DNA from: Eubacterium sp.
Lineage (GTDB): Bacteria > Bacillota > Clostridia > Lachnospirales > Lachnospiraceae
Assembly (NCBI GenBank): GCA_017480495.1
Contig: JAFVAQ010000021.1
Location: 32,388 to 96,387 of the forward strand
Reading direction: 5' to 3'
DNA: 64,000 nucleotides
Shown here: positions 42,694 through 64,000 of the stretch, one piece after another
Numbering within the stretch: position 1 is the first letter of the stretch
How the letters are laid out: each line of letters begins with the position of its first letter
The notes under the pieces: model-generated
Seen by the model: only the letters and a program-made list of their open reading frames with translations
What the model was told of the DNA's origin: nothing
Database searches by the model: none
Made by a program: the position numbers and the translations under genes

Positions 42694-42928
42694 TACGATG
42701 AATCCCTCATATAACATATTAAATGATAGCGTGATTTTCCTATAATTTAAGGAGTGAGCTTCACTTTTTATAAGCCGCGAGCGATGTTGTCTGAGTAAAA
42801 ATGCCCTCCTTATTTTAATAAGAGGCATTTTTACGAGTTAAAGCGAGCGGCATTATAAACTGAAGCGAGCGACTATAAATTATGAAAATCTTAGCGTTTT
42901 TAATATGTTATATGAGGAATTCATCGTA
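42694..42928. repeat. Long hairpin repeat, family B, copy 1
   Basis: Lies in the 411-nt gene-free gap 42633-43043. Outer arms 42694-42723 and 42899-42928 pair at 29 of 30 positions (CATATAACATATT/AATATGTTATATG). Inside, TTTAAGGAGTGAG, CGAGCGATGTTGT, CGAGTTAAAGCGAG and ATTATAAACTGAA match copy 2 at 52897-53077. Inner stems GCTTC/GAAGC and GCCGC/GCGGC match GTTTC/GAAAC and CCCAC/GTGGG in copy 2, that is, by compensatory changes. No open reading frame of note. Confidence 0.8.
42795..42834. repeat. Hairpin insert at the tip of family B copy 1
   Basis: GTAAAAATGCC (42795-42805) pairs with GGCATTTTTAC (42824-42834). Copy 2 has only CGAAG at this point, so about 39 nt of self-complementary sequence replaces the apical loop. 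The T-run makes it terminator-like. Confidence 0.6.
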
Positions 42929-42950
42929 TTATAACTATATGTAGAAAACC

Positions 42951-42979
42951 TTGCATATCTACTAGTTTTAATATATTAT
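42951..42979 (+). promoter_or_regulatory. Candidate yajC promoter
   Basis: TTGCAT (42951-42956), 17-nt spacer, TATTAT (42974-42979), directly after the family B element. A second TATAAT at 43013-43018 lacks a -35. Confidence 0.45.
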
Positions 42980-43043
42980 ATCTAAGGTAATATCATCCTC
43001 TTTTTCAGGGGATATAATATTTATAAAGAAAGAGAGAAAAATT

Positions 43044-43409
43044 ATGATAATGTCAATGATTCTTCAGGGTGGCACAAAGGGCGGAATTGGATTTATGGTT
43101 GGATATATCGTATTCCTTGTTGCCATCGTTTATTTTTTGTTCATTAGACCATCAAAGAAGCAGCAGGCACAGCAGAAGGACTTAATGGATAGTCTGAAGC
43201 CTGGTGATACTGTAATGACAACAAGTGGTTTCTATGGAACTATTATTGGTATGGATGATGATACAGTTATAGTAGAGTTCGGTAATAACAAGAACTGTCG
43301 TATTCCTATGCACAAGAAGGCTATTGCAGAGGTTGAGAGTGCAGATGCTGTTTATGAAGAGGAAGAAGATGAGAAAACTACTAAAGCAGGAAAGAAGAAA
43401 AATGACTAA
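43044..43409 (+). CDS. yajC: Preprotein translocase accessory subunit YajC
   Basis: A 121-aa bitopic membrane protein: one transmembrane helix (about residues 14-34, GFMVGYIVFLVAIVYFLFIR) followed by the typical RPSKKQQAQQKDLMDSLKPGDTV-like segment (split RPSKKQQAQQK / LKPGDTVMTTSGFYGTI) and an acidic, Lys-ended tail. It associates with the SecDF complex. Start codons at 43044 and 43050 are both possible. Its stop overlaps the ATG of the following lipoprotein gene by 8 nt. Confidence 0.92.
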   Translation: MIMSMILQGGTKGGIGFMVGYIVFLVAIVYFLFIRPSKKQQAQQKDLMDSLKPGDTVMTTSGFYGTIIGMDDDTVIVEFGNNKNCRIPMHKKAIAEVESADAVYEEEEDEKTTKAGKKKND

Positions 43410-44166
43410 GAAGTTAGCGGGCATTTTGGTTGCGTTAACTATCCTTGCATCATTTTCTGGATGCGGTAAAGAAGAGGAAGATCCATATTCATCACCATCT
43501 TTTACGGATGGAAAGGTTAGTACGGCTTCAGAGGGTGAAGCTACAAGTACTGATGCTAGTCTGACAGATGCTTTGATGATAGCTAGTTACTCTGATGCTA
43601 CACGTTCAGATGCATCTATGACGGATGCTATACCTGCTAGTCTGACAGATGCTCTTCCAATGGGTGTGTATAACAAGAATACATATTTCAATGGTTTAGC
43701 TGAGTTCAAGATTAAGGTTGATGGAGATAGATGGAAGTTCCTTGATGCGGTAGAAGTGGCTTCTGCTACTGGTGCTACTGAGGACTATGTTAATAACCTG
43801 TGGTATGGATATAAATCGCCATATGAAGAGGATACAACCTATGCGGCTATAGTATCTAATTCACTGAGCGGTTCTACTATTATAGTATCGTATGTAAATC
43901 CAAGCAGTTATATGATGCCGGATTATTCTGCAAAGGAATATCTGTCTATGGCTGCAAAGAAGTACGATAATGTTAGCGTCAGAACAGTTAAATTCCTAGG
44001 TCAGCAATACGAGTGTCTCGATATTCCTAAGGATCAGAATGAGATAGGAAGAAGAACTCAGTTTGCTATAAAGCAAGATGGAATGATAGTACTTATAACC
44101 TTTACAATGATTGATGATACAACATTGGAAGAGGCTGTAAGCCTGATGACACCTTTATATTATTAA
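43402..44166 (+). CDS. Lipoprotein with Ser/Thr-Asp-Ala repeats
   Basis: A 254-aa exported lipoprotein: signal peptide ending in the lipobox FSGC (Cys 21), an acidic patch, then a low-complexity linker (about 40-86) with six [ST]-D-A triplets, and a C-terminal mixed domain (about 90-254) without recognised family. I placed the start at the ATG at 43402, whose ATGACTAA overlaps the yajC stop, because the signal peptide begins there; the longer frame would put a charged segment first. Function unknown; the linker likely spans the cell wall. Confidence 0.8.
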   Translation: MTKKLAGILVALTILASFSGCGKEEEDPYSSPSFTDGKVSTASEGEATSTDASLTDALMIASYSDATRSDASMTDAIPASLTDALPMGVYNKNTYFNGLAEFKIKVDGDRWKFLDAVEVASATGATEDYVNNLWYGYKSPYEEDTTYAAIVSNSLSGSTIIVSYVNPSSYMMPDYSAKEYLSMAAKKYDNVSVRTVKFLGQQYECLDIPKDQNEIGRRTQFAIKQDGMIVLITFTMIDDTTLEEAVSLMTPLYY

Positions 44167-44172
44167 TAACAG

Positions 44173-44202
44173 ACCGGAGTATATATGATATGCTCCGGTT
44201 TT
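44173..44202 (+). terminator. Terminator after the lipoprotein gene
   Basis: ACCGGAGTATAT (44173-44184) pairs with ATATGCTCCGGT (44188-44199) over 12 bp with one G-U, then TTTT. It lies 16 nt before the next start, so readthrough or attenuation is possible. Confidence 0.7.
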
Positions 44203-44217
44203 CTGAAAAGGATATAT

Positions 44218-44925
44218 ATGCTTAATAAGTCTAAAGTGATGAGAAATATGCTGATAGGAATGGTTGGGGCAGCAATATGTATGCTGGCCTGCTGGCTCGC
44301 TATGGCATATGGAAAGGGAAATATCAGAAACGGTTACATACAGAGTAACTGGCCTAAGATGCCTTATCTAAGATTCGAGGCATCTCTTATTCTGTCTGGA
44401 ATAGGAATTTCTCTATACTACGTTGGACTTAAGGAAATGATCAAGGTTGTAAAGACTATGAGATCAAGACGTAGACCTGTGTCTATATCTATGGCACGTC
44501 TTTTTGAGATAGGTGCTATTACAAGTGTCATTTCCTATATGTTTATACAGGCGGGATATATCATGATGGCACTTGTTTATAAGATGCTATTTAATACAAG
44601 TCTGATGGGCACAGATATAATCTCAACAGTTGAGGGAATGTTTTATTATATAGCTATTCCACTCCTTTCATTTCTGGTTCTTTCTGTAGCCGGTGTTTCA
44701 ATCCCATGTATTTATTTTATGTATTGTGATAGATTTAAGGTTCTTAAAGTTTGTATGCTCTTTAATCCTCTGATTTTATGGGGACTAGGAGAGTTGCTTA
44801 AGCTGACTAAGAATTATCATTTGATAGATTTTGCATCTGCAGCTATTCCATTTGGCTATTTACTTATGATGGCAGCAGGACTATCACATGTAGCAAAAAT
44901 GCCAGCGAAGAAGAGAGGGGAATAA
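44218..44925 (+). CDS. Multi-pass membrane protein, unknown function
   Basis: A 235-aa protein with six to seven hydrophobic helices (for example MLIGMVGAAICMLACWLAMA near residues 10-29 and two later pairs). A basic RSRRRPVS loop sits between helices two and three. A conserved-looking NGYIQSNWPKMPYLRFEASL segment follows the first helix. I chose the ATG at 44218 after AAAGGA; the frame starts at 44185 inside the terminator. It is 5 nt before exoA. I do not recognise the family. Confidence 0.72.
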   Translation: MLNKSKVMRNMLIGMVGAAICMLACWLAMAYGKGNIRNGYIQSNWPKMPYLRFEASLILSGIGISLYYVGLKEMIKVVKTMRSRRRPVSISMARLFEIGAITSVISYMFIQAGYIMMALVYKMLFNTSLMGTDIISTVEGMFYYIAIPLLSFLVLSVAGVSIPCIYFMYCDRFKVLKVCMLFNPLILWGLGELLKLTKNYHLIDFASAAIPFGYLLMMAAGLSHVAKMPAKKRGE

Positions 44926-44930
44926 GTATA

Positions 44931-45686
44931 GTGAGATTTGTTTCTTGGAATGTAAATGGTATAAGAGCATGTGTTAAAAAAGGATTCGAGGAATCCTTTT
45001 CTAATTTAGATGCAGATATTTTCTGTATACAGGAAAGTAAAATGCAGAAGGATCAGCTAAAGCTTGATACTCCTGGATATCATCAATATTGGAACTATGC
45101 GATTAGAAAGGGGTATTCAGGAACTGCTATTTTTACCAAGCAGGAGCCTGTTAGTGTTAAGAATGGTCTAGGTATAGAGGAGCATGATCAGGAGGGAAGA
45201 CTGATAACTCTTGATATGGGCGATTACTACTTCATAACAGTTTATGTTCCAAATTCTCAGAATGAACTGAAGCGTCTAGATTATAGAATGAAATGGGAGG
45301 ATGATTTCCGAGAGTATGTATCAGGTCTTAGTAAGGAAAAACCGGTTATCATATGCGGCGATATGAATGTAGCTCATAAAGAGATAGACCTGAAGAATCC
45401 AGCCTCTAATCATCATAATCCGGGATTCTCTGATGAGGAAAGAGGTAAGTTTCAGGAGCTTCTGGATGCAGGCTTCGTAGATACATTTAGATATAAATAT
45501 CCTGACCAGAAGGATATCTATTCCTGGTGGTCTTATCGATTTAATTCCAGAGAGAATAATGCAGGATGGCGTATAGATTATTTCCTTGTATCCGACTATG
45601 TACAGGATAAGATAGTGGACGCGAAGATTCATAATGAAGTCTATGGTTCAGACCACTGTCCAGTTGAGCTGGAGATAGATATCTAA
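44931..45686 (+). CDS. exoA: Exodeoxyribonuclease III / AP endonuclease
   Basis: A 251-aa base-excision repair enzyme that cuts at abasic sites. It has the EEP-family motifs VSWNVNGIRACV, FCIQESKMQ (metal-binding Glu), the PNSQNELKRLDYRMKWE segment, CGDMNVAHKEIDL, NAGWRIDYFLVS and the final GSDHCPVELEI with catalytic Asp-His. The start is a GTG at 44931. Length is normal for ExoA of Firmicutes. Confidence 0.96.
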   Translation: MRFVSWNVNGIRACVKKGFEESFSNLDADIFCIQESKMQKDQLKLDTPGYHQYWNYAIRKGYSGTAIFTKQEPVSVKNGLGIEEHDQEGRLITLDMGDYYFITVYVPNSQNELKRLDYRMKWEDDFREYVSGLSKEKPVIICGDMNVAHKEIDLKNPASNHHNPGFSDEERGKFQELLDAGFVDTFRYKYPDQKDIYSWWSYRFNSRENNAGWRIDYFLVSDYVQDKIVDAKIHNEVYGSDHCPVELEIDI

Positions 45687-45707
45687 AAAAAGAACTGCAT
45701 ATTATTA

Positions 45708-45737
45708 TTGATTTATCATAAAAGAATGTATTATAAT
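45708..45737 (+). promoter_or_regulatory. Promoter before the acyl-CoA synthetase gene
   Basis: TTGATT (45708-45713), 18-nt spacer, TATAAT (45732-45737). The predicted start falls at the 5' edge of the strong hairpin 45740-45774, so the transcript would begin with that structure. Confidence 0.55.
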
Positions 45738-45739
45738 GT

Positions 45740-45778
45740 CTCCGACATGTAGTTTTCAAAACTACGTGTTGGAGTTTT
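45740..45778 (+). terminator. Strong hairpin with T-run between exoA and the synthetase gene
   Basis: CTCCGACATGTAGTTTT (45740-45756) pairs with AAAACTACGTGTTGGAG (45758-45774) with one G-U and one T-G mismatch pair, then TTTT. It ends the exoA transcript; as it follows the promoter above, it could also attenuate the next gene. Confidence 0.75.
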
Positions 45779-45805
45779 AGTTAGAGCATATTTTGAGGAA
45801 AAATA

Positions 45806-47488
45806 ATGAGCAAAGATTATAAATTGACACCTGAAGAAGGAATAGCTGGTAAGTATGTCTCTTCATATGTTGATGAAAGCGGGATGCTGAAGGCAATAGA
45901 TATTCACGACGATGATCATTTTAATTTTGGATATGACGTGGTGGATGTTCTGGCGAAGAAGTGTCCTGACAAAACAGCTATGCTTCATATCTCCAAGGAG
46001 GGTAAGGAAAGAAGAATAACCTTCAGAGACATGAGTGTATATTCAAATAAGACAGCAAACTATCTTCGTTATTTGGGAATCAGGAAGGGCGATAGAGTTC
46101 TTCTTATCTTAAAGAGACATTATCAGTTCTGGTTCACACTTGTAGCTCTCCATAAGATAGGAGCTATAGCTGTGCCATGTTCCTTCTTGCTTACAAAGAA
46201 GGATCTAGAATACAGATTCAGAGCGGGTGGAATAAATGCTGTTGTCTGTACATCAGACGGTGATGTAGCGGATGAGGTAATGAAGGCTACTAAGAATTAT
46301 ATGGGGCTCAAGGCTAGAATAATTGTTGGTGGATCCAGAGAGGGCTGGTCAAACTATAATAGAGATATCAGATTCTTCTCATCACATCTCAGCAGACCGC
46401 AGAATGCAGCCTGCGGAGACGATGCTGCAATTATGTTCTTTACATCAGGAACAACCTCTTATCCTAAGATGGCTACACATAGTCATAAATATCCACTCGG
46501 ACATTATGTGACAGCGAAGTATTGGCATCAGGTAGATAGCAACGGAATGCATTTCACTATTAGCGATACAGGATGGGGCAAGGCTCTCTGGGGCAAGATA
46601 TATGGACAGTGGTTATGTGAGGCACCTATATTCACCTACGATTATGATGAATTCTTTGCGAAGGAAATACTCTCCATGATGGAGAAGTATCATATGACCT
46701 CCTTCTGTGCACCACCTACTGTATTCAGAATGCTAGTGCATGTAGATATGAGAAAGTTCGACTTATCTTCGCTGAAGAATGTTACTACTGCAGGAGAGGC
46801 ACTGAACCCAGAGGTTTATGAGAAGTTCTATAAGGCTACAGGCCTTAAGATCATGGAAGGCTTTGGTCAGACAGAAACAACTCTTACAGTTGCCAACCTA
46901 AAAGGTATGAAACCTAAGCCAGGATCAATGGGACTCCCTAGCCCAATGTATAATGTTAAGATTATGGGTGAAGGTGGTCGCGAGGTAGGAGTTGGAGAAA
47001 CTGGAGAAATCTGTCTCGATGTTCGTGGTAAAGAGCAGAGAGGACTGTTCCTGGGATATTACCTAGATAAAGAGAAGACAGATGCAGTTCTGCACGATGG
47101 TTTCTATCATACAGGTGATACAGCTTATAAGGATGAGGATGGATACTTATGGTATGTAGGTAGAGTTGATGATATTATCAAGTCTGCCGGATACAGAGTA
47201 GGACCATTTGAGATAGAAAATGAAATAATGAAGCTTCCATATGTTCTGGAATGCGCAGTAACTAGCGTGCCGGATAGAGTAAGAGGACAGGCCATTAAGG
47301 CTTCCATCGTACTGACAAAGGGATATACCCCTACAGATAAGCTTCGTAAGGATACAATGAAATATCTGAAGAATAATCTTGCGTCATATAAGAGACCTAA
47401 GTTTGTGGACTTTGTAGAAGCTCTTCCTAAGACTTCTAGTGGAAAGGTCAGACGTTCAGAGATAAAAGAGAAGGACTGGAGTGAATAA
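45806..47488 (+). CDS. AMP-forming acyl-CoA synthetase (medium-chain/acetyl-CoA ligase type)
   Basis: A 560-aa adenylate-forming enzyme that activates a carboxylic acid via acyl-AMP to acyl-CoA. It has the P-loop MFFTSGTTSYPKMATHSH (about residues 210-227), the GFGQTETTL motif, the YHTGDTAYKDEDGYLWYVGR hinge region and the C-terminal catalytic Lys in PKTSSGKVRR (about 548). The acid could be acetate, butyrate or a fatty acid; its place ahead of the fatty-acid operon suggests feeding exogenous acids, which is inference. The stop lies in the loop of a terminator. Confidence 0.9.
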   Translation: MSKDYKLTPEEGIAGKYVSSYVDESGMLKAIDIHDDDHFNFGYDVVDVLAKKCPDKTAMLHISKEGKERRITFRDMSVYSNKTANYLRYLGIRKGDRVLLILKRHYQFWFTLVALHKIGAIAVPCSFLLTKKDLEYRFRAGGINAVVCTSDGDVADEVMKATKNYMGLKARIIVGGSREGWSNYNRDIRFFSSHLSRPQNAACGDDAAIMFFTSGTTSYPKMATHSHKYPLGHYVTAKYWHQVDSNGMHFTISDTGWGKALWGKIYGQWLCEAPIFTYDYDEFFAKEILSMMEKYHMTSFCAPPTVFRMLVHVDMRKFDLSSLKNVTTAGEALNPEVYEKFYKATGLKIMEGFGQTETTLTVANLKGMKPKPGSMGLPSPMYNVKIMGEGGREVGVGETGEICLDVRGKEQRGLFLGYYLDKEKTDAVLHDGFYHTGDTAYKDEDGYLWYVGRVDDIIKSAGYRVGPFEIENEIMKLPYVLECAVTSVPDRVRGQAIKASIVLTKGYTPTDKLRKDTMKYLKNNLASYKRPKFVDFVEALPKTSSGKVRRSEIKEKDWSE

Positions 47489-47501
47489 ACTCCAGTCTTT
47501 T
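47474..47501 (+). terminator. Terminator overlapping the synthetase stop
   Basis: GACTGGAGT (47474-47482)/ACTCCAGTC (47489-47497), perfect 9-bp stem, loop GAATAA containing the stop TAA, then TTTT. Confidence 0.85.
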
Positions 47502-47544
47502 CTTGTATTTGGGGTATAGGCTTAGAACCAAAATAAAGGATAAG

Positions 47545-47555
47545 TTGAGTCTCAA
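47545..47555. promoter_or_regulatory. FabT-like operator ahead of the fab promoter
   Basis: TTGAGTCTCAA is an inverted repeat that matches the TTGAnnnTCAA core known for FabT-type MarR repressors. It is 8 nt before the -35 of the fab promoter; the operon ends with a MarR-type gene. The assignment is inferred. Confidence 0.4.
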
Positions 47556-47563
47556 AATAAAGG

Positions 47564-47591
47564 TTGACATTGAAGGAATATAGACTATAAT
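47564..47591 (+). promoter_or_regulatory. Fatty-acid operon promoter
   Basis: Consensus -35 TTGACA (47564-47569), 16-nt spacer, consensus -10 TATAAT (47586-47591). The start near 47598 leads into the GTTCAAAA/TTTTGAAC inverted repeat (47599-47628). Confidence 0.85.
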
Positions 47592-47598
47592 AAAAAAG

Positions 47599-47628
47599 GT
47601 TCAAAAATTTTAAATAAAAATTTTGAAC
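47599..47628. promoter_or_regulatory. AT-rich inverted repeat at the fab transcript start
   Basis: GTTCAAAA (47599-47606) and TTTTGAAC (47621-47628) flank an AT-rich centre. It starts right at the predicted +1 of the fab transcript and may be an operator or a 5' stabilising hairpin. Confidence 0.45.
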
Positions 47629-47673
47629 AAATACCCGAAAGAGGGAATAATATATCTAAAGGAGAATATGAAA

Positions 47674-47898
47674 ATGTTTGATGAGATCAAGGCAGTTATA
47701 GCAGAGACACTTAGTGTTGACGAGGATAAGATTACTCTTGAGGCATCTCTTACAGATGATCTTGGAGCTGATTCTCTTGACGCAGTAGAGCTTGGTATGG
47801 CTATCGAGGATACAATCGGTGTAGCAATCGCTGATGAGGATCTTCCAAATATCAAGACAGTTCAGGATCTTGTAGATTACGTAGAAGCACACAAGTAA
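47674..47898 (+). CDS. acpP: Acyl carrier protein
   Basis: A 74-aa acidic carrier that holds growing acyl chains on 4'-phosphopantetheine. The modified Ser is residue 34 in [10 protein letters not shown]; the four-helix ACP pattern is complete. I chose the ATG at 47674, nine bases after GGAG; an ATG two codons upstream (47668) is too close to that site. It is the first gene of the fatty-acid operon, 28 nt before accD. Confidence 0.95.
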
Positions 47899-47926
47899 AT
47901 AAAATACTCGTTCGGAGGCACTTTAA

Positions 47927-48826
47927 ATGAAACTTTTTGGTAAGCGTAATCACGGTGTTGATTACGAAGAAGTTGCCAAGGCTGAGGTCGAATTAATCGA
48001 CTCAGTAAACGAGGAATTAGATGATGATACTAACTCGGAGCAGGTATATACCTGCTCCGATTGCGGTGTCGAGGTTCCTCTTGGTGAAGTGAAAAAAAAT
48101 CTGTACGTGTGTCCAAAGTGTGGTAAGCATACCAAGATTTCAGCTAGACGACGTATGGCAGGCCTGGCAGACCCAGGAACATTTAGAAGAATCAAGACGG
48201 ATATTCAGTTTATGAATCCACTTGATTATCCAGATTATGAAGAGAAAATAACAGGTCTCAAGAACAAGACAGGACTTGATGAAGGAGTTCTTTCTGGGGT
48301 TTGTGAGATCGAGGGATATAAAACAGTAGTTGCAGTTATGGCTAGTGAATTCCTTATGGGAAGCATGGGTATGGCTGTAGGCGAAATAATAACAAAGACT
48401 TTTGAAGTGGCTGAGAAGATGGAACTACCTGTAATCATTTTTACTGCCAGTGGTGGTGCAAGAATGCAGGAGGGTATCCTCTCACTTATGCAGATGGCTA
48501 AGACATCAGCTGCAGTTCAGAAGTTCAGCGCAAGTGGCGGTTTATATGTTTCAGTACTAACGCATCCTACAACAGGTGGTGTAAGTGCCAGCTTTGCTAC
48601 GCTTGCAGATATAACTATAGCTGAGCCAGGAGCACTGATAGGCTTCGCGGGTCCTCGAGTTATAGAGCAGACCATTGGTCAGAAATTGCCAGCTGGTTTC
48701 CAGAGAGCTGAGTATCTGGAGGAGCATGGATTTGTAGATGGAATCGTTTCAAGACTTGAAATGAGAGATAAACTAGCACAGATCCTGAAACTTCATGAGA
48801 AAAGGAGGAAGGCATGGCTTCGATAA
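47927..48826 (+). CDS. accD: Acetyl-CoA carboxylase carboxyltransferase beta subunit
   Basis: A 299-aa subunit that with AccA moves CO2 from biotin carboxyl carrier protein to acetyl-CoA, giving malonyl-CoA. The four-Cys zinc ribbon (CSDCG and CPKCG, about residues 43-66) marks AccD. The crotonase-like core has FTASGGARMQEGILSLMQMA and the LTHPTTGGVSASFA and AEPGALIGFAGPRVIEQT motifs. Its first 40 residues are an extra acidic lead-in. It overlaps accA by 13 nt. Confidence 0.96.
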   Translation: MKLFGKRNHGVDYEEVAKAEVELIDSVNEELDDDTNSEQVYTCSDCGVEVPLGEVKKNLYVCPKCGKHTKISARRRMAGLADPGTFRRIKTDIQFMNPLDYPDYEEKITGLKNKTGLDEGVLSGVCEIEGYKTVVAVMASEFLMGSMGMAVGEIITKTFEVAEKMELPVIIFTASGGARMQEGILSLMQMAKTSAAVQKFSASGGLYVSVLTHPTTGGVSASFATLADITIAEPGALIGFAGPRVIEQTIGQKLPAGFQRAEYLEEHGFVDGIVSRLEMRDKLAQILKLHEKRRKAWLR

Positions 48827-49755
48827 GAGATATTGATAATAAGCTGATGGCTTTGGAAGAGCAGATAGCTGCTCTTAAGGTCAACATGGAGCATATGGAG
48901 CTTCTGAGAGACCTTCATGCAGAGTATGATACAACCGCACAGCAGGCTGCAAATCTTACTCCTCATGACAGAGTATTTCTGGCTAGACATACTAAGAGAC
49001 CTAAGGTTGATGATTATATAGATGCTCTGTTTGATGATCTGTTTATTCAGAGAGGAGATGTTCTGAATAAAGAAGATAAGAGTATATATGGTGGTATCGC
49101 TACATTTCATGGCCTTCCTGTTACGGTGCTCGGTCATCGTAAAGGTCGCGATCTAAATGAAAATATGGAGTTTAACTTCGGAATGCCTGAGCCTGAAGGA
49201 TATCGTAAGGCGCTTAGAATGATGAAGCAGGCGGAGAAGTTTGGACGTCCTATAATCACATTTATCGACACTCCAGGTGCTTATCCTGGTCTCGATGCTG
49301 AGGCTCATGGACAGAGCCAGGCTATTTCCAGAAACCTTGCAGAAATGAGTTCCCTTAAGGTTCCTGTAATCGCTATTGTTACAGGAGAAGGAAGTAGCGG
49401 TGGAGCACTTGCTATAGGTGTGGCTAACACAGTATACATGCTTGAAAATGCAGTATATTCTGTACTGTCACCAGAGGGCTTTGCTTCTATTCTGTGGAAG
49501 GATTCCTCAAGAGCCGATGAAGCCTGCAAGCTGATGAAGCTGACAGCTCAGGATCTGTATGAGTTTGGCGTTATTGATGGAATCATTAAGGAACCTCTTT
49601 GTGGTGCACATCATAACCCAAGTGTTGTATATCGTGACATAGATGAGATGCTGGTTCGTGAACTTCGTAAGTTTAAGGGTAAATCTGGATCAGATATCGC
49701 AAAGGACCGTTACGAGAAATTTAGAAATATCGATAGCGTTGTTTTGAATAAGTAA
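48814..49755 (+). CDS. accA: Acetyl-CoA carboxylase carboxyltransferase alpha subunit
   Basis: A 313-aa partner of AccD. It has an N-terminal helical hairpin (about 1-50), then the crotonase-like fold with PRPIITFIDTPGAYPG-like (here FGRPIITFIDTPGAYPGLDA), GEGSSGGALAIGVAN and LSPEGFASILWKD. The ATG at 48814 lies in accD after AAGGAGGAAG, so the two subunits are coupled for equal output. Biotin carboxyl carrier and carboxylase genes (accB, accC) are not in the window. Confidence 0.96.
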   Translation: MASIRDIDNKLMALEEQIAALKVNMEHMELLRDLHAEYDTTAQQAANLTPHDRVFLARHTKRPKVDDYIDALFDDLFIQRGDVLNKEDKSIYGGIATFHGLPVTVLGHRKGRDLNENMEFNFGMPEPEGYRKALRMMKQAEKFGRPIITFIDTPGAYPGLDAEAHGQSQAISRNLAEMSSLKVPVIAIVTGEGSSGGALAIGVANTVYMLENAVYSVLSPEGFASILWKDSSRADEACKLMKLTAQDLYEFGVIDGIIKEPLCGAHHNPSVVYRDIDEMLVRELRKFKGKSGSDIAKDRYEKFRNIDSVVLNK

Positions 49756-49809
49756 GGTTGAGCCGATAGTTGCGAAAACCTATGGCATAGTTAACGAGGT
49801 ATAGAATAA

Positions 49810-50724
49810 ATGATTAATGAATTATTAGGAACAAAATATCCTATTATCCAGGGTGGTATGGCAAATATCGCTCTTGGTAAATTCGCAGCTGCTGTATCTA
49901 ATGCAGGTGGACTTGGACTTATCGGTTCTGGTGGATATGACGCTGCAAGAATAGAGCAGGAAATATATGATGCACGTAAGGCTACAGATAAGCCTTTTGG
50001 TGTAAATCTGATGCTACTTAATCCTGACGTAGATAATATCGCAGACCTTCTTGTTAAAGAGAAGATTAAGATAATTACTACAGGTGCTGGTACACCAGGA
50101 AAGTATATGGAGAAATGGAAAGAGATGGGAGCTATCGTTATCCCAGTTATCGCAAGTAGTGCTCTTGCTCGTAGAGTTGAGAAGCAGGGCGCTGATGCGG
50201 TTATAGCTGAGGGTGGTGAAAGTGGTGGTCACGTAGGTGATATGACAACTATGGCTCTTGTCCCACAGATAGTTGACTGTGTAGATATTCCTGTTATTGC
50301 AGCAGGTGGTATTGCAGACGGAAGACAGTTTGCTGCTGCTATGTGTCTTGGAGCTGCAGGTGTTCAGATAGGTACATGCTTACTTGTATCTGAAGAGTGC
50401 CCAGTTCATGACAACTATAAGCAGGAACTTATCAAAGCTAAGGATAATAGTACTACAGTAACAGGACGTTCATTAAATGCCCCTGTACGTATCATTAAGA
50501 ATCAGATGGCACGTGAATATCTGAAGCTTGAAGCTGAGGCTGCTTCACGTGAAGAGCTGGAGCAGATAACCCTTGGTGGACTTCGTAGAGCTGTTTCTGA
50601 TGGTGATATGAAGACGGGTTCTGTAATGGCTGGTCAGGTTTGTGGACAGCTTAAAGAAGTTCGCCCTGTCGCTGACATAATCGCAGATATTTATAATGAT
50701 GGTATGAAGATACTTGGAAGATAG
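49810..50724 (+). CDS. fabK: Enoyl-ACP reductase II
   Basis: A 304-aa FMN-dependent TIM-barrel enzyme that reduces trans-2-enoyl-ACP, the last step of each elongation cycle. It belongs to the nitronate monooxygenase-like family, with YPIIQGGMANIA at the start, GGLGLIGSGG, AEGGESGGHVG (flavin/substrate site, about residues 136-146) and IPVIAAGGIADGRQFAAAM. No fabI is present here. It starts at the ATG at 49810, and a long hairpin repeat separates it from fabD. Confidence 0.94.
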   Translation: MINELLGTKYPIIQGGMANIALGKFAAAVSNAGGLGLIGSGGYDAARIEQEIYDARKATDKPFGVNLMLLNPDVDNIADLLVKEKIKIITTGAGTPGKYMEKWKEMGAIVIPVIASSALARRVEKQGADAVIAEGGESGGHVGDMTTMALVPQIVDCVDIPVIAAGGIADGRQFAAAMCLGAAGVQIGTCLLVSEECPVHDNYKQELIKAKDNSTTVTGRSLNAPVRIIKNQMAREYLKLEAEAASREELEQITLGGLRRAVSDGDMKTGSVMAGQVCGQLKEVRPVADIIADIYNDGMKILGR

Positions 50725-50736
50725 TCAATAACGGAC

Positions 50737-50898
50737 GATGCTCGATTGTGAATATTCCTTGCTCGACTCAGCTTGCGCACAGGCGCGGTGCCCTAGCGGC
50801 CGCTTCGCTTGCTAAGCTCTCACTTCGCCTGGAGGCTCGTGAATCGCTAAGCACCGAGACCACTTATGGTCTCGCAAGGAATATTATAATCTCGCATC
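50737..50898. repeat. Long hairpin repeat, family A, copy 2
   Basis: Fills most of the 230-nt fabK-fabD gap. Arms 50737-50762 and 50874-50898 pair (GAATATTCCTTGC/GCAAGGAATATT). The core 50811-50857 shares CTAAGCTCTCACTTC and GTGAATCGCTAAG with the reverse complement of copy 1 (25492-25535). An apparent 60-codon frame inside is a product of the repeat. Confidence 0.75.
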
Positions 50899-50954
50899 TG
50901 TTAAATAGTAAGGACTTAATATATAGATAAGTACTGAAAAAAGGAATAAATAAT

Positions 50955-51905
50955 ATGAAATTAGGATTTATATATGCAGGACAGGGTTCTCAGAAGGTTG
51001 GTATGGGAATGGACCTCTATGAGAAGTATCCTGAGTTTAAGGAGACGTTTGATAATGTAAAGGGTGTTGATTTTGATCTTAAGAAGGTTTGCTTCGAGGG
51101 ACCAGCAGAGACACTTAATGAAACAAAATATACACAGCCTTGTATGGTTGCATTTGCAGTTGGTATGACAAAGGTTCTGAAGAGCTTAGGTGTTGAACCA
51201 GTATGTGCTGCTGGACTTTCACTGGGAGAGTATAGCGCACTCTATGCTTCAGGAGTTTTCACAGAGGAGCAGGTTATTCCTCTTGTGCAGTTCAGAGGAA
51301 ATGCAATGCAGACAGCTGTTCAGGGAAGAGATTGCAAGATGATAGCAGTTCTTGGACTGGATAAGGAAACAGTTTTCGCTGGATGTGAAAAGGTGAAGGT
51401 GGAGCTTGAGGCAGCTGGAAAGTCAGACCTTATAGCAGAGCCTGCAAACTTCAACTGTCCTGGACAGATTACAGTATCTGGTGATGCTGAAGCTGTTGAT
51501 ATGGCAGCTGAAGTACTTAAGGAGATGGGTGCTAAGAGATGCCTTCCAGTCAAGGTAAGCGGACCTTTCCATACATCACTTATGAAGCCGGCAGGAGATG
51601 CACTTGCAGAGAGATTCCAGAGCGAGAGTTTTGGAGATATGCAGATTCCAGTTGTATTTAACTGTATCGGTCGTGAAAAGGAAGAGGCGGAGACTATTCC
51701 TGCACTTCTTGAAAAGCAGGTACAGAAGTCTGTATACTTCGATGACTCTATCAAGGCTATGGCGGATATGGGAGTTGAGGCATTTGTTGAAATCGGACCT
51801 GGAAAAACACTTTCAAAGTTCGTGCAGAAGACAACTCCTGATGTTCCAGTTTATGGAGTAGAGACAGTAGAAGATATAGAGAAGCTACTGGAAGTGATCA
51901 AATAA
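50955..51905 (+). CDS. fabD: Malonyl-CoA:ACP transacylase
   Basis: A 316-aa enzyme that loads malonate on ACP. It shows YAGQGSQKVGMGMDLYE at the start, the nucleophilic Ser in GLSLGEYSAL (about residues 88-97), the conserved Arg in QFRGNAMQ, and the catalytic His in GPFHTSLM (about 201-208). Start at the ATG at 50955. Length is normal. It is downstream of the family A hairpin and upstream of fabG. Confidence 0.96.
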   Translation: MKLGFIYAGQGSQKVGMGMDLYEKYPEFKETFDNVKGVDFDLKKVCFEGPAETLNETKYTQPCMVAFAVGMTKVLKSLGVEPVCAAGLSLGEYSALYASGVFTEEQVIPLVQFRGNAMQTAVQGRDCKMIAVLGLDKETVFAGCEKVKVELEAAGKSDLIAEPANFNCPGQITVSGDAEAVDMAAEVLKEMGAKRCLPVKVSGPFHTSLMKPAGDALAERFQSESFGDMQIPVVFNCIGREKEEAETIPALLEKQVQKSVYFDDSIKAMADMGVEAFVEIGPGKTLSKFVQKTTPDVPVYGVETVEDIEKLLEVIK

Positions 51906-51973
51906 TTAGAATAAGTATCATAAATAATCAAATATCATAAATGGTATTTATTGAAATAAGTAACAGAATTAGT

Positions 51974-52000
51974 GTCATCCTGAACGAAGTGAAGGATATT
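51974..52000 (+). repeat. CATCCTGA-type dispersed repeat unit
   Basis: TCATCCTGAACGAAGTGAAG followed by GATATT, between fabD and fabG, matches the widely scattered CATCCTGAGCGAAGCGAAGGAT repeat type found between genes in many bacteria. It can form a short ATCCT/AGGAT hairpin 10 nt before the fabG ribosome binding site. Confidence 0.45.
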
Positions 52001-52013
52001 AAAGGAGAAAAAG

Positions 52014-52763
52014 ATGAGCAAGAGATTAGAAGGCAAGACAGCTATTGTAACTGGTGGAGCACGTGGTATCGGAAGAGCTATCAGTGTAAAGCTTGCATCT
52101 GAAGGCGCAAACGTAGTTATCTGTGATCTTGTAATTAACGAAGTTGCAGAAGAGACTGTAAAGCTTATAGAGGAGCAGGGAGTAAAGGCTGCAGCAATAG
52201 CAGCAAATGTAACTCTTCCAGAAGATTGTGAGAACCTCTTCAAGCAGGCTATAGAGCAGTTTGGAGCAGTTGATATACTTGTAAATAATGCTGGTGTAAC
52301 AAGAGATAACCTCATCATGAGAATGAAGGAAGAAGAGTTTGACCTTGTTATCTCAACAAATCTTAAGGGAACCTACAACATGATGAAGGCTGCAACAAGA
52401 CCTATGATGAAGGCTCGTTACGGACGTATAGTTAACATCAGTAGTGTTGTTGGTATATATGGAAATGCAGGTCAGGTTAACTACTCAGCAAGTAAGGCAG
52501 GTGTTATCGGTATGACAAAGTCCCTTGCAAAGGAGCTTGGAAGCCGTGGCATCACAGTAAATGCTGTAGCACCTGGATTCATCGATACAGATATGACAAA
52601 GGTTCTTTCAGAAGAACTTAGAGCAGAAATGGTTAAGAATATCGCACTTGGTAGACCAGGACAGCCAGAGGACGTTGCAAAGGTTGTTGCCTTCCTCGCA
52701 TCTGACGAAGCTGCATACGTAACCGGCCAGGTAATCGAATGCGCTGGTGGGATGAGCTGTTAA
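52014..52763 (+). CDS. fabG: 3-oxoacyl-ACP reductase
   Basis: A 249-aa short-chain dehydrogenase that reduces beta-ketoacyl-ACP with NADPH. It has the cofactor motif TGGARGIGRAI (about residues 13-23), NNAGVTRDN with the catalytic Asn region, the Ser-Tyr-Lys set (SSVVGIYGN and YSASKAG, Tyr about 154) and PGFIDTDMT. The start follows AAAGGAGAAA. A gene-free 339-nt gap with hairpins and the family B repeat follows. Confidence 0.96.
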   Translation: MSKRLEGKTAIVTGGARGIGRAISVKLASEGANVVICDLVINEVAEETVKLIEEQGVKAAAIAANVTLPEDCENLFKQAIEQFGAVDILVNNAGVTRDNLIMRMKEEEFDLVISTNLKGTYNMMKAATRPMMKARYGRIVNISSVVGIYGNAGQVNYSASKAGVIGMTKSLAKELGSRGITVNAVAPGFIDTDMTKVLSEELRAEMVKNIALGRPGQPEDVAKVVAFLASDEAAYVTGQVIECAGGMSC

Positions 52764-52766
52764 AAA

Positions 52767-52785
52767 AACAGTCCAGTGGACTGTT
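52767..52785 (+). terminator. Hairpin just after fabG
   Basis: AACAGTCC (52767-52774)/GGACTGTT (52778-52785) with a 3-nt AGT loop, preceded by a run of A. The T-run is poor, so termination would be partial at most. The rest of 52786-52896 holds further GC-rich inverted segments but no gene. Confidence 0.4.
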
Positions 52786-52896
52786 GTTCAGCGAATCCAC
52801 GAGAGCTGTGCTCGAGGGCGGAAATGAGCTGTTTAGTTCATTAGAGCCATTGACGAGGCGAATGATCAGCCGACAATAAATAGGTAGCTAAAATAA

Positions 52897-53077
52897 ATCA
52901 TGATATATATTATAAACAGTCACGTGATTTTTCTAAGATTTAAGGAGTGAGTTTCATGATTTATAACCCACGAGCGATGTTGTTTGAGCGAAGCGAGTTA
53001 AAGCGAGTGGGATTATAAACTGAAACGAACGACTATAAATCTTAAAAATCTTAGTGGTTTATAATATATATCATGAT
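52897..53077. repeat. Long hairpin repeat, family B, copy 2
   Basis: Between fabG and fabF. Outer arms 52897-52917 and 53057-53077 pair perfectly over 21 bp (ATCATGATATATATTATAAA plus C). Inside lie CTAAGATTTAAGGAGTGAG, CGAGCGATGTTGT, GAGCGAAGCGAG and ATTATAAACTGAAAC, shared with copy 1 at 42694-42928. It ends 25 nt before the fabF start. Confidence 0.8.
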
Positions 53078-53102
53078 TAGTTGAATATATTTAGGAGGAA
53101 AA

Positions 53103-60401: not shown

Positions 60402-60446
60402 TTGATTCTGGTATAGATAAGTAATTATGTAATAGCGAAAAGTAAT

Positions 60447-60486
60447 AAAAGGATGATTCGAGAAAACTTGAATCATCCTTTTTGTT
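60447..60486. terminator. Bidirectional terminator
   Basis: AAAAGGATGATTC (60447-60459)/GAATCATCCTTTT (60470-60482), perfect 13-bp stem with T-runs on both strands, between the convergent lipoprotein and membrane-protein genes. Confidence 0.9.
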
Positions 60487-60520
60487 TCTTACTATATTTA
60501 ATAATTATTTGGTTTAGCTT

Positions 60521-63848: not shown

Positions 63849-63874
63849 AATGAGTAAATGCTTGAGTGAAAAGT

Positions 63875-63970
63875 TAAATTCCACTTGTAAAAGTAAATTC
63901 CATACTGAAGACTAAATTCCACATTTAAAGGGTTTGACATATGGTTAAATTCCGTTTAATGTGGAATTTA
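63875..63970. repeat. Array of TAAATTCCA repeats at the window edge
   Basis: TAAATTCCA(C) occurs in direct orientation at 63875, 63894 and 63913 (exactly 19-bp period) and, as TAAATTCCG, at 63946, then inverted as GTGGAATTTA at 63961-63970. A TTGACA (63934-63939) lies between them. The pattern fits a promoter with an operator array or the multi-repeat end of an insertion sequence; the gene behind lies outside the window. Confidence 0.6.
63934..63960 (+). promoter_or_regulatory. Possible promoter inside the repeat array
   Basis: TTGACA (63934-63939) and TTTAAT (63955-63960), spacer 15 nt, flanked by the TAAATTCC repeats. The -10 is weak; the target would lie beyond 64000. Confidence 0.35.
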
Positions 63971-64000
63971 ATCATTCAGAAGCTATTATTTCATAAAAAA

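Follow-up and report, generated by a model that had tools for sequence, protein, structure and literature searches.

Two hairpin elements at tgt-yajC and fabG-fabF

We analyzed a 64,000-nucleotide stretch of a contig from a Eubacterium sp. genome, referred to here as the window. Two related elements lie in it, one in the intergenic region between tgt and yajC and the other in that between fabG and fabF (gene names were assigned by reading the translations of open reading frames). Each element consists of a core enclosed by outer arms that are complementary to one another (Table 1). A preliminary description of this DNA, made from the letters alone, had placed two long hairpins at these positions – each with self-complementary arms, each between co-directional genes, and both with common sequence blocks and inner stems that differ by compensated changes. 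We found all of these features in the sequence, the compensated stems being GCTTC/GAAGC against GTTTC/GAAAC and GCCGC/GCGGC against CCCAC/GTGGG. In what follows, G000 is the source genome, other G-numbers are genomes of the same genus, L-numbers are fetched loci, and C-numbers are contigs.

Table 1. Window positions of the two elements and their parts.
Feature	Window position	Strand	Remarks
Copy 1, whole element	42694-42928	+	tgt-yajC intergenic
Copy 1, left outer arm (locus-specific)	42694-42723	+	30 nt, 97% complementary to 42899-42928
Copy 1, right outer arm	42899-42928	+	Partner of left arm 42694-42723
Copy 1, conserved core (model R1 positions 1-182)	42722-42903	+	R1 match G000:C12:75109-75290, 205.5 bits; copy used in building R1
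Copy 1, conserved 5' internal-loop block CGAGCGATGTTGTCTGAG	42778-42795	+	Many invariant columns in alignment A1
Copy 1, conserved 3' internal-loop block CGAGTTAAAGCGAGCG	42834-42849	+	Many invariant columns in alignment A1
Copy 1, terminal hairpin (variable; no counterpart in copy 2)	42796-42833	+	From sequence, fold, and core alignment
Copy 2, whole element	52896-53078	+	fabG-fabF intergenic
Copy 2, left outer arm (locus-specific)	52896-52917	+	22 nt, 100% complementary to 53057-53078
Copy 2, right outer arm	53057-53078	+	Partner of left arm 52896-52917
Copy 2, conserved core (short form)	52915-53063	+	R1 match G000:C12:85302-85450, 141.6 bits; copy used in building R1

Both copies fold far more stably than shuffled versions of themselves (z -13.2 for copy 1 and -11.1 for copy 2; for either copy, 0 of 200 shuffles matched the native fold). 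When copy 1 was folded as DNA, its two strands were near equal, at -54.5 and -55.5 kcal/mol. The two copies are the only covariance-model matches listed in the window (model R1, described below). Other repeats occur alongside them: a second palindromic repeat, AACAGTCCAGTGGACTGTT ... CCACGAGAGCTGTGCTCGAGGGCGG, lies at 52757-52880 between fabG and copy 2, with tandem or related versions just past the fabG stop codon in relatives (L132 in G013 and L137 in G019), and further long inverted repeats are found at 60419-60510 and 63867-63978.

A dispersed family with a covarying core

A BLAST search with copy 1 identified 5 distinct loci in the source genome; of 61 genomes of the genus, 10 had a match. 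A covariance model built from 23 cores (R1) returned 54 matches in 13 of the 61 genomes, including 7 in the source genome. The preliminary description had proposed such a search of this genome and its relatives and had named a lack of further copies as counter-evidence; both methods recovered further copies. By the same model, the element is present in 6 of the 31 genus genomes with completeness of at least 90% and contamination of at most 5%. Two matches cut by contig ends (G026:C1:6992 and G026:C13:4023) were removed, leaving 52 copies for analysis.

When 299 genomes drawn from across the bacterial family were searched under stricter filters, with eight candidates scored per genome listed, no covariance-model match lay outside the genus, and the source genome was the only one matched. 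An exact-pattern search of a species-level genome collection, which finds exact matches to one pattern and in which records very near the source genome may be absent, returned 16 stretches, and the records that contain them all bear the name Lachnospiraceae bacterium or Eubacterium sp. In these searches, the family turned up in one genus of mostly rumen bacteria and in no other. Searching the window against Rfam release 15 yielded 0 matches at the gathering threshold. At E ≤ 1, a search of six loci likewise gave nothing at threshold over the element, with a single weak match to Plastid-psbA-2 (28.9 of the 55.8 bits needed), in agreement with the preliminary description, whose author knew of no described family that fits. 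A piece of a group II intron scored above the Rfam threshold elsewhere in L014, outside the element.

The copies are dispersed and non-coding, apart from 4 of the 52 that overlap a mechanically called open reading frame of at least 80 amino acids. At both tgt-yajC and fabG-fabF the element is missing in some relatives, and the same operons are thus found with and without it.

Within the 23-row core alignment, 95.4% of cells pair, a figure favored by the structure having been derived from the same 23 sequences. Both sides have changed at 21 of the 41 core pairs. Consistent with the covariation claimed from two copies alone, and for which a lack of significant signal had been set down as disproof, the alignment contains 93 double-change cells against 25.0 ± 4.2 in shuffled alignments; 0 of 500 shuffles reached 93, and sliding the alignment left 6-15. 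The number of further pair types was not above that in shuffles (34 versus 34.6). Wobble counts in the core (52 to 7 and 44 to 18 with nothing excluded) are dominated by a few constant-G·U or out-of-register columns and carry no evidential weight.

The core ranges from 93 to 208 bp across copies and falls into two subtypes. Unpaired columns are not better conserved overall than paired ones (mean entropy 0.70 and 0.56, respectively). The most conserved unpaired part is a central loop block, CGAGCGAT..TTGTYYGA / CGAGTTAAAGC, with a mean entropy of 0.38. This largely invariant block is probably the cis-acting part of the element.

We compared the identity of the core with that of its flanks in 18 ortholog comparisons. 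The core was above both flanks in 8 (for example, 100% versus 94-96% at locus B in G000-G039, and 99.5% versus 92-93% at locus E in G000-G055), below both in 4 (81% versus 90-99% at locus F in G000-G039), and between them or in pieces in 6. Judged from these alignments, the mismatch suggests host-level selection, or allele exchange or conversion, rather than simple decay. Loci B, E, F, and H present either cores of 99-100% with flanks of 92-96% or a core of 81% with one flank of 99%.

Outer arms, orientation, and inversion

Just outside the core, the flanks of the 52 full copies are complementary to each other within each copy but for the most part unrelated from one locus to the next; orthologs and the copies in G029 and G018 are exceptions. 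In 51 of the 52 copies, the strict local arm-pairing score exceeded the 95th percentile of a null of 587 cross-copy pairs, among which some orthologous pairs are still included.

To follow change in the arms, we took one ortholog pair per locus, picked as being among the most diverged, and counted 20 paired double changes and 23 single changes, with 194 unchanged and 156 gap or other columns. By our arithmetic, independent change at the same rate would give ~1.4 paired doubles, though the alignment of arms favors pairs and the excess is an upper view. Against a reading in which one arm is copied from the other, 11 of 30 arm comparisons contain no paired double change. Ten of these, in the main between close orthologs, together have 20 single changes and no double; the remaining one, G039-G037 at locus X, is a diverged pair with 0 doubles and 6 singles. 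This pattern of singles before doubles would fit a mismatch arising first and being corrected later.

Orthologous groups were assembled by us from arms and flanks and then checked by flank alignment. Nine loci have at least two intact orthologs, and at five of them – A (tgt-yajC), C, D, E, and X – the flanks of at least one pair align on swapped sides, such that the element is inverted between species. Flank identity in the inverted comparisons is 82-98%, except for 73% on one side of G055-G037. Flipped copies at C and D largely kept their arms; those at A, E, and X had more altered ones.

These observations bear on whether the family is a structured RNA – such as an intercistronic hairpin that a double-strand RNase would process, or a terminator active in both directions, in which the palindrome would work either way and selection for RNA pairing would keep the arms complementary. 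The strong covariation of the core and the 8 of 18 comparisons in which it exceeds both flanks are in keeping with such an RNA, as is gene context. Among the 48 copies with both neighbors called (4 of the 52 lack such calls, which come from mechanical open reading frames), 36 lie between co-directional genes, 9 between convergent genes, and 3 between divergent genes. At L063, between convergent genes, runs of A and T close the arms in the manner of a terminator. Yet the co-directional copies show no preferred orientation, as the core follows the gene direction in 20 and opposes it in 16, and the element was not found in 48 of the 61 genus genomes, including in operons where some relatives carry it. 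The absence of any Rfam family at threshold adds to the points against a structured RNA.

Wobble pairs in the arms speak in both directions. A first count of arm mismatches, with ragged outer parts included, gave 52 G·U, 54 A·C, and 145 others; a strict count gave 25, 16, and 35. On the transcribed strand of the 36 co-directional copies, G·U exceeded A·C by 40 to 27 (p = 0.14; 13 to 9 in the strict count), or by 30 to 18 after thinning, which left fewer copies at each locus (p = 0.11); this is the tilt that a structured RNA would favor. As a control, 95 distinct tRNAs called by ARAGORN (which itself favors pairing) in the fetched loci were counted over their anticodon and T stems, giving 43 to 7. 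The arms differ from this control in both the full and the thinned counts (Fisher p = 0.002 and 0.010, respectively), and their pairing thus shows no clear wobble preference of the kind found in tRNA stems. It is possible that a small G·U tilt remains on the transcribed strand, and the 40 to 27 ratio points weakly to a modest RNA role.

Arm wobbles, orientation, and inversions disfavor a simple strand-specific RNA, and we consider a structured RNA of the broader kind unlikely as an account of the family. The preliminary description had left the choice between a conserved folded RNA and a cruciform. Its conserved, covarying fold stands, whereas the RNA side of that choice now looks the weaker: as far as comparative sequence can tell, folded DNA appears to fit better with the arm wobbles, the near-even orientation, the five inverted loci, and the equal DNA folding of the two strands of copy 1.

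Probable mobility and a proposed mechanism

G029 contains eight near-identical copies with common arms. The arm motif occurs at 17 sites in this genome, and since 16 of these are the arms of the eight copies, with the other being a one-mismatch site elsewhere, no free palindrome was found in G029. At the L057 locus, G018 lacks the element and has 37 nt in place of the 278 present in G029; no arm palindrome was seen by eye at this empty site, the best one obtained, whose flanks are 81-82% identical, a low value that weakens it as evidence of insertion. Together, the shared arms and the palindrome-free empty site suggest that an inserting element brings its arms along.

Other candidate sites were less informative. 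L036 has a counterpart without the element in G039:C4 (72-75% identical, arms absent by eye) and a one-sided counterpart in G000:C31 (65% identical), and L051 offered no usable empty site. By eye, no clear target-site duplication was seen in the G029 copies, and no transposase could be linked to the element; both points count against the mobile-element reading. As regards a longer autonomous partner with the same ends, all matches of two element-carrying queries in G029 were to the eight complete copies, with none to element ends standing apart.

We also observed remnants from which part or all of the core is gone. Four of these retain arms that seem paired by eye (G000:C10, G000:C19, G055:C3:48207, and G013:C38); two others have no paired arms by eye (G055:C3:19882 and G013:C43), which counts against upkeep of the arms. 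An arm-only locus in G000 looks like a deletion remnant in that it keeps the edge bases of the core (GAATCG / GTAGCGTGATTC).

Arms that vary by locus could also be target sequence, if the element inserts into pre-existing palindromes such as terminator loops, and terminator-like hairpins are indeed present at L063 in some relatives. We regard this as improbable and reject it as the main account on the strength of the G029 arm-motif sites and the G018 empty site. The core edge bases at the arm-only G000 locus, and the element-free tgt-yajC and fabG-fabF sites of distant relatives, which have no arms by eye, likewise argue against it. Still less probable is a DNA switch flipped site-specifically by a recombinase: five of nine loci are inverted between species, but no recombination motif common to the arms across loci was evident by eye, and the core is so nearly symmetric that a flip would alter little.

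We favor, with moderate confidence, a non-autonomous DNA hairpin resembling a miniature inverted-repeat transposable element (MITE), with a conserved centre and with arms that diverge between loci yet stay complementary, probably through template switching. Such an element would be a small, non-coding, mobile DNA of about 150-300 bp that forms one long hairpin or cruciform. Its outer arms would be terminal inverted repeats, brought in at insertion and common to young copies, which would afterwards drift from those at other loci while remaining mutually complementary. The simplest account of this upkeep is that DNA polymerase, switching template between the inverted-repeat arms, would copy one arm from the other; the same switching would flip the segment between them, and hairpin-driven deletion would leave arm-only remnants. 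Arms that pair yet differ by locus, a near lack of wobble bias, inversions, and deletions within elements would all be expected from template switching.

Such switching would, however, be expected to erase the unpaired loops of the core as well, yet the central ones persist, and it leaves unexplained the cores that exceed both flanks. Some selection acting on the core, whether to the benefit of movement or of the host, would thus be needed in addition, with allele exchange as an alternative source of the latter pattern. We infer from these sequence patterns that template switching is the cause, that the core may serve as the signal for a putative trans-acting enzyme, and that upkeep of the element is probably selfish rather than host-serving. 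More tentatively, and with more doubt than confidence, we propose that a selfish element may work here as folded DNA – its core hairpin recognized by a putative enzyme through its structure, its arms rewritten and flipped by replication – and would thereby, through concerted evolution, display RNA-like covariation that owes nothing to selection on RNA.

Bacterial MITEs and hairpin repeats such as ERIC, NEMIS, Correia, RUP, BOX, and bcr1 are short, non-coding, dispersed, and intergenic and have terminal inverted repeats; bcr1 also has a folded structure with compensatory changes. The present family resembles them in its terminal inverted repeats (51 of 52 copies) and in its dispersed non-coding copies that are absent from the same locus in some relatives. 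It differs in that the terminal repeats are mostly locus-specific, with complementary pairs, and that the conserved part is the centre. REPINs are small hairpins that move and carry compensatory changes on both sides, their conserved ends (REP doublets) enclosing a variable spacer (PMC3116915). The plan is reversed here, with a conserved centre and variable ends in place of REP ends.

Template switching between inverted repeats has been described as homogenizing arms and inverting spacers (PMC8604942) and has been put forward as a means by which hairpins arise and are kept (PMC8794818). Arm homogenization and spacer inversion would be the points of likeness between this quasipalindrome correction and the present family. 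There, however, correction is described as a mutation process on single repeats, and the yeast-inversion spacers are short (2-5 bp changed), whereas the present copies are dispersed and have spacers as long as their cores. A description of the family was not found in the open-access literature searched, where absence proves little. We regard it as a new family of intergenic mobile hairpins, a broad class already known, whose layout of conserved centre and rewritten ends is unusual.

Compensatory changes are conventionally taken to prove that an RNA is functional. If the proposed mechanism is true, the family would be a natural case of abundant double changes with pairing maintained at the DNA level, as indicated by wobble balance, orientation, and inversions, and would counsel caution in RNA discovery based on covariation. 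Its 52 copies and nine comparable loci would also amount to a natural experiment, many times repeated, on bacterial template switching, and the conserved core hints at a putative enzyme or binding partner.

The arrangement of individual copies offers some further observations. Several metagenome contigs end inside or beside an element (C1, C13, C105, and C112 of G026; C111 and C109 of G009), which are probably assembly breaks caused by the repeat. At L113 in the source genome, two elements lie in opposite orientation 74 bp apart (G000:C16:86500 on the minus strand and 86723 on the plus strand), and one of this pair has seemingly shrunk to a short remnant at L226 (G039:C5). In G029, G018, and G026 (L050-L058, L044, and L047-L049), many copies by eye directly follow another repeat family, CTTGCTCGCGA / CAAACTCACTCGCGAATTTACTATTG, and several of them precede promoter-like TATAC boxes, also by eye.
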